A stretch of 64,000 nucleotides of DNA from Streptomyces sp. AV19 (GTDB taxonomy: Bacteria > Actinomycetota > Actinomycetes > Streptomycetales > Streptomycetaceae), in NCBI RefSeq assembly GCF_015999245.1, contig NZ_JAEAMR010000009.1, forward strand, positions 247,531-311,530, given 5' to 3'. A program made the position numbers and the translations under genes. The notes under the pieces were generated by a model. That model made no database searches, was not told the DNA's origin, and was given only the letters and a program-made list of their open reading frames with translations. Shown one piece after another: positions 25,964 through 58,273 of this stretch (the stretch's first letter is position 1; every line of letters begins with the position of its first letter).

Positions 25964-26313
25964 GCCTAACTCCCCTATTACTGGCCCTTGCGCAGGACCG
26001 CACTTCGCGGACCCGGGTCAGACCTCACCCCTCGTGACACCCAGAGGTGTGCGCCGGAACGCGTCGACCGCGGCTGAATGTATCTGCACGGATGCCGTCT
26101 GCAACAGGTCAGACGGACGAGAAATCCCGGGGAGGCCGAGCGGTGATACCCGGCGAACTGGGGTGGTTCCAGGGCAAGTCGGGCCGGACAGACTGCACCA
26201 TCGCGACAATTCGCGCACGTATTTCCTGTGCAAATTGACGGGTTCTCATATGCGTTCGGCTCTGACACCGAAGGGGGAACGCCCCAACTGTATCGCGCTT
26301 CAACAGACGGAAT
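25964..26313 (-). promoter_or_regulatory. Upstream/leader region of the cold-shock gene
   Basis: About 350 bases of moderate GC without a confident gene. A 46-codon minus frame starts at 26249 (MRTRQFAQEIRARIVAMV) but has no ribosome site. A long leader is normal for csp genes; I cannot mark the transcription start. Confidence 0.45.
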
Positions 26314-26340
26314 CACCCCGTCCGCTTCGCGGCCGGGGTG
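26314..26340 (-). terminator. Terminator after the moaD-like gene
   Basis: CACCCCGTCCGC at 26314-26325 pairs with GCGGcCGGGGTG at 26329-26340 with one bulge and a three-base loop. It stands about 60 bases beyond the stop of the MoaD-like gene on the minus strand. Confidence 0.65.
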
Positions 26341-26401
26341 GTCCGTGTTTTGTACAGGCTTGCTGCGAAAAGGGAGTTGGCGCGCCGCCGGCCGGTGCCG
26401 G

Positions 26402-26677
26402 TCAGCCTCCCGCGACGGCCGGGATGATCGAGACCCCGGCGCCGTCGGGGGTGGGCGCGGCGAGGCCGCCCCCGAAGCGGACGTCGTCGTCGTTGACGTA
26501 GACGTTCACGAAGCGGCGCAGCTTGCCGGCGTCGTCGAGGACGCGGGCCCCGATGCCGGGGTGGCTCCGGTCCAGATCGGCGATCACCTCGGCGAGGGTG
26601 GCCCCCTCGGCGGGGACCTCGGTCTTACCGGCGGTGTAGGTGCGGAGGATGGTGGGGATGCGGACGGTGACGCTCAT
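26402..26677 (-). CDS. MoaD/ThiS-family ubiquitin-like sulfur carrier (CysO-like)
   Basis: 91 residues with the beta-grasp order VRIPTILRTYT, EVIADLDRSHPGI, FVNVYVNDDDVRF and the required C-terminal Gly-Gly (VSIIPAVAGG). After adenylation, that end is thiocarboxylated and donates sulfur. The GTVL-type insertion and the position next to threonine synthase match actinobacterial CysO, which feeds CysM for O-phosphoserine-dependent cysteine synthesis; a molybdopterin role cannot be excluded. It follows thrC on the same strand with about 150 bases between them, which contain a repeat tag. Confidence 0.88.
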   Translation of the reverse strand: MSVTVRIPTILRTYTAGKTEVPAEGATLAEVIADLDRSHPGIGARVLDDAGKLRRFVNVYVNDDDVRFGGGLAAPTPDGAGVSIIPAVAGG

Positions 26678-26749
26678 GGGGTGGGCTCGCTTTCTGGGTG
26701 ATGTGTGTTGTGGTGCGGGTAGTTCATGGGTGCCCGACGGCGTGGTCCG

Positions 26750-26800
26750 CCCCCGCCCCGCCCTTTCACCGTTTCTTCCGGGGCGGGGGCGGGGAGGAAC
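26750..26800. repeat. Gene-end tag and G-rich hairpin
   Basis: ccccgccctttcaccgtttc at about 26756-26775, followed by ccggggcgggggcgggg. It lies between the thrC stop and the moaD-like start, so it interrupts what would otherwise be a tight operon. Confidence 0.75.
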
Positions 26801-26825
26801 AAACCCCCGAGAGACAGCCGCCCCG

Positions 26826-28094
26826 CTACCCCAACCCCGCCTCCCGGAACGCCTCCACGCTCGGCCGGATCGTCGCCCGCGGCCCCGCCGCCACCGCGTC
26901 CAGCGTCTTGAGGCCGTCGCCCGTGTTCAGGACGACCGTCGTCAGGGACGGATCCAGCACGCCCTCCCGCAGGAGCTTGCGGGTGACGCCGACCGTCACC
27001 CCGCCGGCCGTCTCCGCGAAGATCCCCTCCGTCCGGGCGAGCAGCCGGATCGCGTCCACGACCTCCTCGTCCGTCACGTCCTCCACCGCCCCGCCCGTGC
27101 GCCGGGCGATGTCGAGCACGTACGGCCCGTCCGCCGGATTGCCGATGGCCAGCGACTTCGCGATCGTGTCCGGCTTCACCGGGCGGACGACGTCGTGGCC
27201 GTCCTTGTACGCCCGGGAGACCGGCGCGCACCCCGTCGCCTGGGCGCCGAAGATCCGGTAGGGGCGGTCCTCGACCAGCCCCAGCGCGATCAGCTCCCGC
27301 AACCCCTTGTCGATCTTCGTGAGTTGGGAGCCCGAGGCGACGGGGACCACGATCTGGTCCGGCAGCCGCCATCCCAGCTGCTCGCAGATCTCGTACGCGA
27401 GGGTCTTGGAGCCCTCCCCGTAGTAGGGGCGCAGGTTGACGTTGACGAAGCCCCAGCCCTCCCCCGCCGGATCGCCGATCAGCTCGGAGCAGAAGCGGTT
27501 CACGTCGTCGTAGGTGCCCTCGATGCCGACCAGGTCGCCGCCGTACACCGCGGCCATGACGACCTTGCCGGCCTCCAGGTCGTGCGGGATGAAGACGCAG
27601 GAGCGCAGGCCCGCGCGGGCCGCGGCGGCGCCGACCGCGCCGGCCAGGTTCCCGGTCGACGAACAGGACAGCGTCGTGAAGCCGAAGGCCCGCGCCGCCT
27701 CGACGGCGACGGCGACGACGCGGTCCTTGAAGGAGTGGGTGGGGTTCCCGGAGTCGTCCTTGACGAACAGGCCGCCGGTGACGCCCAGTTCGCGGGCGAG
27801 GTTGTCGGCCCGGACGAGCGCGGTGAAGCCGGGGTTGAGGTTCGGTTTGTCCGCGACGTCGGCGGGGACGGGCAGCAGGGGGGCGTAGCGCCAGATGTTC
27901 GCCGGCCCGGACTCGATGCGGCGCCGCAGGCCCTCCGGGTCGCCGGCCGGGAGCTCGTAGGCGACCTCCAGCGGACCGAAGCAGGAGGCACAGGCGAAGA
28001 CCGGTCCGAGGTCGAAGCGCTCGCCGCACTCGCGGCAGGAGAGAGCGACGGCGGGACCGAAAGACGTGACGCGTTCGACGGCTTGCACAGCCAT
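26826..28094 (-). CDS. thrC: Threonine synthase
   Basis: 422 residues, PLP enzyme converting O-phosphohomoserine to threonine. The N-terminus has a Cys pair set, LSCRECGERF and FACASCFGPL, of the zinc-ribbon-like threonine synthase type. The PLP lysine is in NPTHSFKDRVV, SSTGNLAGAV is the phosphate-binding loop, and the end ETAGGVTVGVTRKL and NTGDGLKT is typical. ATG 28094 was chosen because the next upstream start (ATG 28118) lies in the P1 helix of the riboswitch. The SAM-I riboswitch immediately upstream ties threonine synthesis to S-adenosylmethionine level. Confidence 0.96.
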   Translation of the reverse strand: MAVQAVERVTSFGPAVALSCRECGERFDLGPVFACASCFGPLEVAYELPAGDPEGLRRRIESGPANIWRYAPLLPVPADVADKPNLNPGFTALVRADNLARELGVTGGLFVKDDSGNPTHSFKDRVVAVAVEAARAFGFTTLSCSSTGNLAGAVGAAAARAGLRSCVFIPHDLEAGKVVMAAVYGGDLVGIEGTYDDVNRFCSELIGDPAGEGWGFVNVNLRPYYGEGSKTLAYEICEQLGWRLPDQIVVPVASGSQLTKIDKGLRELIALGLVEDRPYRIFGAQATGCAPVSRAYKDGHDVVRPVKPDTIAKSLAIGNPADGPYVLDIARRTGGAVEDVTDEEVVDAIRLLARTEGIFAETAGGVTVGVTRKLLREGVLDPSLTTVVLNTGDGLKTLDAVAAGPRATIRPSVEAFREAGLG

Positions 28095-28111
28095 GGAGGC
28101 GAGGCCCTTTC

Positions 28112-28256
28112 TCCTCATCTTCCCCGTGGCGAACCTCGCCACGAGACGGAATTGGCACCTTCCCCGCCGGGAGCCTCGCGTTCCTGCGAACGGAGACCGG
28201 CTGGAGGGTTGCCGGGGCTTCATCGGGCCGTGTCCCTCTGCCCCTCTGGATGAGCG
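28112..28256 (-). ncRNA. SAM-I (S-box) riboswitch in the thrC leader
   Basis: On the minus strand the conserved S-box core is present: CTCATC (P1, 28254-28249), CCAGAGGGGCAGAGGGA, GGCCCGATGAAGCC, CGGCAACC, then GGTGCCAATTCC. Next comes a P4 hairpin CGTGGCGA/TCGCCACG (28125-28143), and GATGAG (28119-28114) closes P1. The 3' strand of P1 runs directly into GAGGAGAAAGG, the likely ribosome-binding region of thrC, and no terminator follows. Control is therefore probably translational: SAM binding would stabilise P1 and hide the ribosome site. Confidence 0.94.
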
Positions 28257-28454
28257 GTATGGCGCCGGGCGGTCTGTGGTCACCCGGGCGTTTGTGACAT
28301 GCGGTGCATGCGCGCGGGACCCCGACATACGGGCGGGCTCCGCGTTGTTCAAGACTGTATCGGAAGGTGCGGACCCTTGAGAGGGGCGTCCGCACAGCGA
28401 GATGCGTCACAGGACGGGACGCGTCACAGGAAACGGGAACGAGGAGTCGTACAC

Positions 28455-29402
28455 GTGCTGGAAGAGGTGGAGCGCTGGCTGGCCCGGCGGTCCTGGTCCG
28501 CCGCAGACCGTCCGCTCGACCGGCTGCTCGCCGCCAAGCGCGAGACGGGGAGCACCGTGAGCGTGGTACTGCCCGCTCTGAACGAGGAGGCCACGGTCGG
28601 GGAGATCGTGGCCACGATCCGGCGCGAGCTGATGACCGGGGACGTGCCCCTGGTGGACGAGCTGGTGGTGCTCGACTCCGGTTCCACGGACGGAACGGCG
28701 CGGGCGGCCCGGGCCGCCGGGGCCCGGGTGGAGCACCGGGACGCGGTGCTGCCGGAGCTGCCCGCGGTGCCCGGCAAGGGCGAGGTGCTGTGGCGGTCGC
28801 TGCTGGTGACGAGCGGCGACATCGTGTGCTTCGTGGACGCCGACCTGCGCGACTTCTCGGCGTCGTTCGTCTCGGGGATCGTCGGCCCGCTGCTCACCGA
28901 CCCGGACGTGGCCTTCGTCAAGGCGATGTACGACCGTCCGCTGGGCGAACTGGAGGGCCAGGGCGGCCGGGTGACCGAGCTGGTGGCCCGCCCGCTGCTC
29001 AATCTGCACTGGCCGCTGCTGGCCGGCTTCGTCCAGCCGCTGGGCGGCGAGTACGCGGCGCGGCGCTCGCTGCTGGAGCGGCTGCCGTTCCCGGTGGGGT
29101 ACGGGGTGGAGCTGGGGCTGCTGGTGGACGCGCTGCACACGGTGGGGCTCGACGCGCTCGCGCAGGTGGACGTCGGGGTGCGCAAGCACCGCCACCAGGA
29201 CGGGCGGGCGCTGGGCCGGATGGCCGCCGCGATCTACCGCACCGCGCAGCTGCGGCTGGGCCGCGGGCCGCTGGTGCGGCCGGAACTCGTCCAGTTCGAG
29301 CGCACGGCGGAAGGTTTCTCCCCGCGGACGCACCCGGTGGACACGGAGGAGCGGCCGCCGATGGCCGATGTGCCCGAGTACGCGCGGCACCGCGCGGCGT
29401 AA
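28455..29402 (+). CDS. gpgS: Glucosyl-3-phosphoglycerate synthase
   Basis: 315-residue GT-A glycosyltransferase. VSVVLPALNEEATVGEIV is the nucleotide-sugar binding start, and VCFVDADLRDF contains the DxD metal motif. ELVARPLLNLHWPLLAGFVQPLGGEYA and KHRHQDGRALGRMA match GpgS of mycobacteria. The reaction joins UDP- or ADP-glucose to 3-phosphoglycerate, the first step to glucosylglycerate and, in mycobacteria, methylglucose polysaccharides. GTG 28455 has GAGGAG at good spacing; the frame upstream is the thrC leader. otsA follows 50 bases later, so the two are likely coexpressed. Confidence 0.93.
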   Translation: MLEEVERWLARRSWSAADRPLDRLLAAKRETGSTVSVVLPALNEEATVGEIVATIRRELMTGDVPLVDELVVLDSGSTDGTARAARAAGARVEHRDAVLPELPAVPGKGEVLWRSLLVTSGDIVCFVDADLRDFSASFVSGIVGPLLTDPDVAFVKAMYDRPLGELEGQGGRVTELVARPLLNLHWPLLAGFVQPLGGEYAARRSLLERLPFPVGYGVELGLLVDALHTVGLDALAQVDVGVRKHRHQDGRALGRMAAAIYRTAQLRLGRGPLVRPELVQFERTAEGFSPRTHPVDTEERPPMADVPEYARHRAA

Positions 29403-58014: not shown

Positions 58015-58088
58015 AGCCGCCTGTCGGGTTCGAACCGACGACCCCCTGTTTACAAGACAGGTGCTCTGGCCAACTGAGCTAAGGCGGC
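58015..58088 (-). tRNA. tRNA-Thr (anticodon TGT)
   Basis: Minus strand, 74 bases including the discriminator. The acceptor stem GCCGCCT/AGGCGGC is perfect, the D arm is TAGCTCAGTTGGCCAGAGCA, and the anticodon arm CCTGT-CTTGTAA-ACAGG gives TGT. The T arm contains GGTTCGAACCC. CCA is not encoded. It reads ACA codons, which are very rare at this GC. Confidence 0.97.
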
Positions 58089-58204: not shown

Positions 58205-58220
58205 ATTGGACTGGACCACT
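58205..58220 (+). promoter_or_regulatory. DasR dre-like site upstream of msiK
   Basis: ATTGGACTGGACCACT matches 13 of 16 positions of A(G/C)TGGTCTAGACCA(G/C)T. It is 54 bases before the msiK ATG. If bound by DasR, ATPase supply for sugar import would be linked to amino-sugar status. Confidence 0.65.
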
Positions 58221-58273
58221 CCCTCTACTCGGATCGTCCGGCACGTTCCTGCCGGTGAAGGGACCGCATCACC

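Follow-up and report, generated by a model that had tools for sequence, protein, structure and literature searches.

A SAM-I riboswitch upstream of a putative metM-metO pair in Streptomyces sp. AV19, and its recurrence with metM across the class

Introduction

In the CysM/CysO system of Mycobacterium tuberculosis, a fold-II PLP enzyme is fed by a protein thiocarboxylate and converts O-phosphoserine to cysteine. MetM and MetO share with this system the type of enzyme, a related carrier and the use of a protein thiocarboxylate, which is the form in which MetO acts, but they lead from O-phosphohomoserine to homocysteine. The homocysteine synthase MetM was identified in Streptomyces by Hasebe et al. 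2024 (as cited in PMC12172450), and the part of PMC12172450 considered here gives O-phosphohomoserine as its substrate and describes an SAM riboswitch upstream of metM in S. albulus. The same part describes a relative from Microcystis that shares 51.6% identity with S. albulus MetM. It has a metO-like carrier adjoining it, is without the SAM riboswitch and is active both as threonine synthase and as threonine deaminase; the authors judge that its role in Microcystis is not fully that of MetM. The link between an SAM riboswitch and metM is thus already in print, and its regulatory logic is conventional.

In S. lividans TK24, an RNA-seq-supported SAM riboswitch (RF00162 leader) has been placed before SLIV_16930-SLIV_16925, and the section of PMC8079986 concerned files this locus under ‘threonine biosynthesis’, unlike the reading reached here. 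We infer that it is the same locus as the one described below and that SLIV_16925 is the carrier. Moreover, actinobacterial riboswitches have base stems that overlap the translation start, according to the part of PMC1262725 considered.

Results

The window, that is, the whole stretch of 64,000 nucleotides from Streptomyces sp. AV19 analysed here, had been predicted from its letters to carry a complete S-box (SAM-I) core at 28112-28256, with no strand given, directly upstream of thrC. The covariance search proposed with that prediction, for which a score below threshold would count against it, was run with cmscan on the whole window and returned a match to RF00162 (SAM-I) at exactly these coordinates, on the minus strand (28256-28112), with 78.5 bits and an E-value of 8.8e-17. 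This exceeds the gathering cut-off of 44.4 bits, the match covers model positions 1-108 of 108, and it is the sole RF00162 match of the assembly at E<=0.001; the riboswitch is confirmed as real. From the sequence and the Rfam structure line, the 5′ strand of P1 is CUCAUC at 28249-28254, and the Rfam match places its 3′ strand, GAUGAG, at 28114-28119, both on the minus strand. Elsewhere in the window, an msiK RNA motif (RF01747, 50.5 bits; 58213-58270, plus strand) lies near a tRNA-Thr gene (58015-58088, minus strand).

The gene behind the aptamer lies at 26826-28094 on the same strand and encodes 422 amino acids. Its product matches PF00291 and passes the curated ‘threonine synthase’ model TIGR00260 (265.2 bits, above the cut-off of 167.1), and its nearest solved structures are threonine synthases. 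TIGR00260, however, does not separate MetM from ThrC. We aligned 65 MetM-type proteins (this genome's and 64 of 67 loci given, the rest having a short match or a stop) with 31 canonical ThrC rows, in which this genome's protein is counted twice. Relative to ThrC, the MetM type has an added CxxC..CxxC N-terminus and fixed differences at three places, G59 to H120, R161 to Y225 and GNA 188-190 to ASG 253-255, while the lysine of SFKD is common to both. We take these three places to line the substrate pocket. A quick tree, which carries a warning about long branches (L214 with the ThrC group), put MetM and ThrC on separate branches with SH-aLRT values of 100 and 98. The 422-aa protein neither groups with the enzyme of the hom-thrC-thrB cluster nor carries its fixed pocket residues.

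The next gene on the strand (26402-26677, minus) encodes a ThiS-family sulfur carrier of 91 amino acids that ends in AVAGG and hence has a C-terminal GG (PF02597, 56.1 bits). Among solved structures it is closest to 4n6e_B (E 2.1e-28) and 3dwg_C (E 3e-28), the latter presumably CysO of M. tuberculosis. Riboswitch, thrC-like gene and carrier together form, judged from sequence, the layout of metM-metO, the published homocysteine route of Streptomyces. Compared with the published description of S. albulus metM-metO, not with its sequence, and within the part of PMC12172450 considered, the locus has the same thrC-like gene, the same kind of ThiS-like carrier beside it, an SAM riboswitch upstream and the same genus, and no difference was found.

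The genome holds a canonical hom-thrC-thrB cluster elsewhere, the ThrC of which is 38% identical to the 422-aa protein, and a relative of canonical ThrC is present in 60/60 class genomes (E<=1e-60). A MetA-type protein (PF04204) is absent from this genome and occurs in only 1 of 101 Streptomyces genomes. For MetX, the curated cut-off was reached in no genome, controls included, and we therefore set thresholds of our own, 300 bits and E<=1e-60; the best MetX model match in this genome has 23.6 bits and none passes E<=1e-60. In 30 of the 101 Streptomyces genomes a MetX-like match scores 300 bits or higher, which means that not every strain has MetM as its only route. In the class, 103 genomes lack metM and 193 have it; MetX (E<=1e-60) was found in 92 of the former and in 85 of the latter, so that 85 genomes combine metM with a MetX-like match. 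A third threonine-synthase-like gene of this genome (L034:1483-2613, plus strand; 35% identical, with a CxxC..CxxC N-terminus) has a canonical-like G where the MetM type has H120, and another ORF lies close upstream of it.

On these grounds (the canonical cluster elsewhere, the separate clade with changed residues, and the sulfur-carrier neighbour) we judge that the gene at 28094-26826 is most unlikely to encode a real threonine synthase and is very probably that of the methionine-pathway enzyme MetM. The original prediction of thrC directly downstream thus stands for a thrC-like gene and falls for its identity as threonine synthase, given the separate clade and the changed pocket residues. 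Its statement that the riboswitch does not precede a methionine gene is not supported, given the clade, the carrier behind the gene, the canonical thrC elsewhere and the lack in this genome of MetA and, at the thresholds used, of MetX.

The start codon of the metM-type gene, 28094, is 19 nt past the GAUGAG strand of P1. Between them lies a Shine-Dalgarno match, AGAAAGG (28106-28112, minus strand), separated from GAUGAG by one base, so that P1 abuts the ribosome site as had been predicted. A CCUC (28101-28104, minus strand) is a possible partner, judged by conservation and folding, for the GAGG at 28116-28113 in an alternative hairpin that overlaps P1. No terminator-like site was found between the aptamer and the gene when the minus strand was scanned over 26300-28500, again in agreement with the prediction; the only such site in that range, a weak one (26825-26808, minus strand; 5 pairs, loop 8, tail GGGGTTTGTT), falls between metM and metO, and counts against regarding co-transcription of metO with metM as certain. 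A base stem that adjoins or overlaps the Shine-Dalgarno sequence, with no terminator, is the layout of a translational OFF switch. The riboswitches in the part of PMC1262725 considered are alike in that P1 adjoins or overlaps the Shine-Dalgarno sequence and a further hairpin is unneeded; that part gives no conserved RNA structure before methionine and threonine operons, whereas the metM leader has both SAM-I and a conserved GAGG:CCUC hairpin.

This layout is shared widely. Among the 99 Streptomyces leaders, from which a second-copy region without metM (L136) was left out, GAUGAG precedes the start codon by 16-21 nt in all 99; the Shine-Dalgarno sequence is exactly AGAAAGG in 88, GAAAGG in 5 more and a shorter match in 6, and GGxCCUC is retained in 98 when the list is read by eye. 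The distance from P1 to the start is 8-22 nt in the 40 leaders that could be parsed of 43 from other families (15 of 30 class loci and 28 of 29 further loci), and by eye the other 3 are laid out similarly. In the two leaders with the shortest distance (L204 and L205) Shine-Dalgarno-like bases lie partly inside P1. Some leaders of other families are without CCUC, while in them the Shine-Dalgarno sequence still touches or overlaps P1.

Streptomyces leaders were folded computationally without SAM. The 7-base Shine-Dalgarno window was predicted to be unpaired with a probability of 0.61 when P1 was forced, 0.85 when the P1 5′ strand was barred and 0.76 without constraint, and it was more open without P1 in 93/99 leaders. 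The P1-forced and P1-barred states differed by a mean of 1.0 kcal/mol, GAGG:CCUC paired with a probability of 0.60 when the P1 5′ strand was barred, and the start codon was no more open without P1 (0.52 unpaired) than with it (0.56). The predicted contrast between the two states is modest, given that the Shine-Dalgarno window would still be 0.61 unpaired with P1.

The large RF00162 searches, in the genus as well as in the class and family, were run with strict filters, at the cost of weak matches. RF00162 was found in 99 of 101 Streptomyces genomes, twice in one of them; in the two others metM begins at or near a contig edge, so the leader was probably lost to assembly. The proposed survey of Streptomyces leaders bore out an SAM-I aptamer before a thrC-like gene in 99/100 regions, the gene being of metM type (80-94% identity outside this genome) and not canonical thrC; the remaining region is the second copy L136, which precedes another gene. 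A metO match is present in 98/100 regions, and in one the contig ends before metO. We take SCO4293 of S. coelicolor to be the metM ortholog. ArgR binding upstream of SCO4293, as a putative threonine synthase, is reported in the part of PMC3293853 considered.

Beyond the genus, metM follows the aptamer in 58/58 best-scoring loci of the class and family searches (six from Streptomyces, three of these already in the genus survey), and metO was matched in 53 of these loci, which are only about 3.1 kb long. Forty further loci were picked to cover other families and second copies. In 34 of these metM follows, and each of the remaining 6 is the second of two RF00162 copies in its genome; metO is present in 25 of the 34, and of the 9 without it 2 end at a contig edge and 7 continue past metM. 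Among 296 class genomes, with metM called at E<=1e-90 (193 positive) and RF00162 searched with stricter filters, which lose weak matches, 191 have SAM-I and metM, 11 SAM-I alone, 2 metM alone and 92 neither; Fisher values for these pairings, including that of metM with MetX, overstate the evidence because the genomes are related. One of the 11 genomes with SAM-I alone holds a metM cut by a contig end, in 4 the aptamer is followed by an ORF resembling, by eye, cystathionine gamma-synthase, MetE, MetF or sulfite reductase, in 2 by an ABC ATPase, and the other 4 received no assignment; 2 of all 11 score below the cut-off. What this analysis adds is that, throughout the class, SAM-I and metM go together almost one to one and that the leaders share the layout of P1 and the Shine-Dalgarno sequence; we found no earlier description of either in the literature searched, although one may exist.

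Second SAM-I copies of 59.7-68.5 bits occur in five Streptomycetaceae genomes (L136:2842-2701 and L228:2843-2701, minus strand; L227:301-443, L229:301-443 and L231:301-444) upstream of an IclR-type regulator, assigned by Pfam for L136 and L227 and by eye for the others. In these copies P1 is followed, by eye, by a short reading frame that starts with GTG, and the regulator presumably resembles NdgR. Two more second copies precede an MFS transporter assigned by Pfam (L226:301-437, 69.2 bits) and an ORF that is GNAT-like by eye (L230:2797-2701, minus strand, 62.0 bits).

Discussion

We consider it highly likely that the SAM-I riboswitch heads a metM-metO pair and that MetM falls when SAM is plentiful, as end-product feedback exerted by a translational OFF switch through P1 and the Shine-Dalgarno sequence. 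MetM would convert O-phosphohomoserine, with sulfur from the carrier MetO, into homocysteine, from which methionine and SAM are made. Abundant SAM would bind the aptamer and stabilise P1, which touches the Shine-Dalgarno sequence, thereby hindering ribosome loading and lowering MetM; when SAM is scarce P1 would open, the conserved CCUC could pair with the 3′ strand of the stem, and the Shine-Dalgarno sequence would be freer. Leader layout and folding support a translational OFF switch on metM and do not prove it, and we infer both the OFF direction and the translational mode.

The original prediction took the gene for a true threonine synthase, with SAM exerting a cross-branch control of threonine. 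Such a reading can point to the TIGR00260 score and to the threonine synthases among the nearest structures, yet a canonical thrC sits in hom-thrC-thrB in this genome and relatives of it in all 60 class genomes searched, the protein belongs to a separate clade with a changed pocket, a sulfur carrier is its neighbour, and MetM activity is published, as the part of PMC12172450 considered relates; we set it aside as highly improbable. It is also unlikely that MetM has retained genuine threonine synthase activity in addition to its role in methionine synthesis, so that SAM would touch threonine supply as well. The Microcystis relative does make threonine from O-phosphohomoserine, and deaminates threonine, but it is without the SAM riboswitch (both from the same part of PMC12172450), and the canonical ThrC of this genome and the fixed pocket changes across the class-wide MetM clade speak against a dual role at this locus.

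Given the metM-type gene, the direction and level of control remain to be weighed. An ON switch, also raised in the original prediction, would have SAM raise translation by releasing the Shine-Dalgarno sequence from the loop of the GAGG:CCUC hairpin; this hairpin and P1 are mutually exclusive, and its bases are kept in 98/99 Streptomyces leaders by eye. The idea finds no support in the folding, where the Shine-Dalgarno window is more open without P1 in 93/99, and some leaders of other families lack CCUC but keep the contact or overlap of P1 with the Shine-Dalgarno sequence; moreover, a methionine gene needs OFF logic, and we regard the ON switch as very doubtful. There is a somewhat better, still small, chance that the same gene is switched off at the level of transcription, for example by Rho-dependent termination, since factor-dependent termination leaves no pattern that a scan would find. 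Against this, no intrinsic terminator was found before metM, P1 lies 8-22 nt from the start codon wherever leaders were parsed, and base stems of actinobacterial riboswitches overlap the translation start (part of PMC1262725 considered). The translational OFF switch on metM thus remains our preferred reading.

For the class as a whole, SAM-I may in essence serve one target only, mostly with one copy in each genome, and may have come down together with metM from an early ancestor; it would control how O-phosphohomoserine is divided between methionine and threonine through a P1 that touches or overlaps the Shine-Dalgarno sequence. A few Streptomycetaceae would have a second copy placed before the gene of an IclR-type regulator, perhaps acting via a short leader reading frame. 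We hold this picture to be evenly balanced between right and wrong.

The apparent paradox of SAM acting on the threonine branch arose because the gene was labelled ‘threonine synthase’, a label that TIGR00260 also gives. With a gene of metM type, repression by SAM would be plain feedback, and the false paradox is removed. A methionine gene is hidden under the label of a curated model, and metM-type matches occur in 193 of the 296 class genomes; riboswitch and carrier gene are handy marks by which metM can be told from thrC. Furthermore, with SAM-I and metM paired almost one to one, how O-phosphohomoserine is divided between methionine and threonine can readily be tested.
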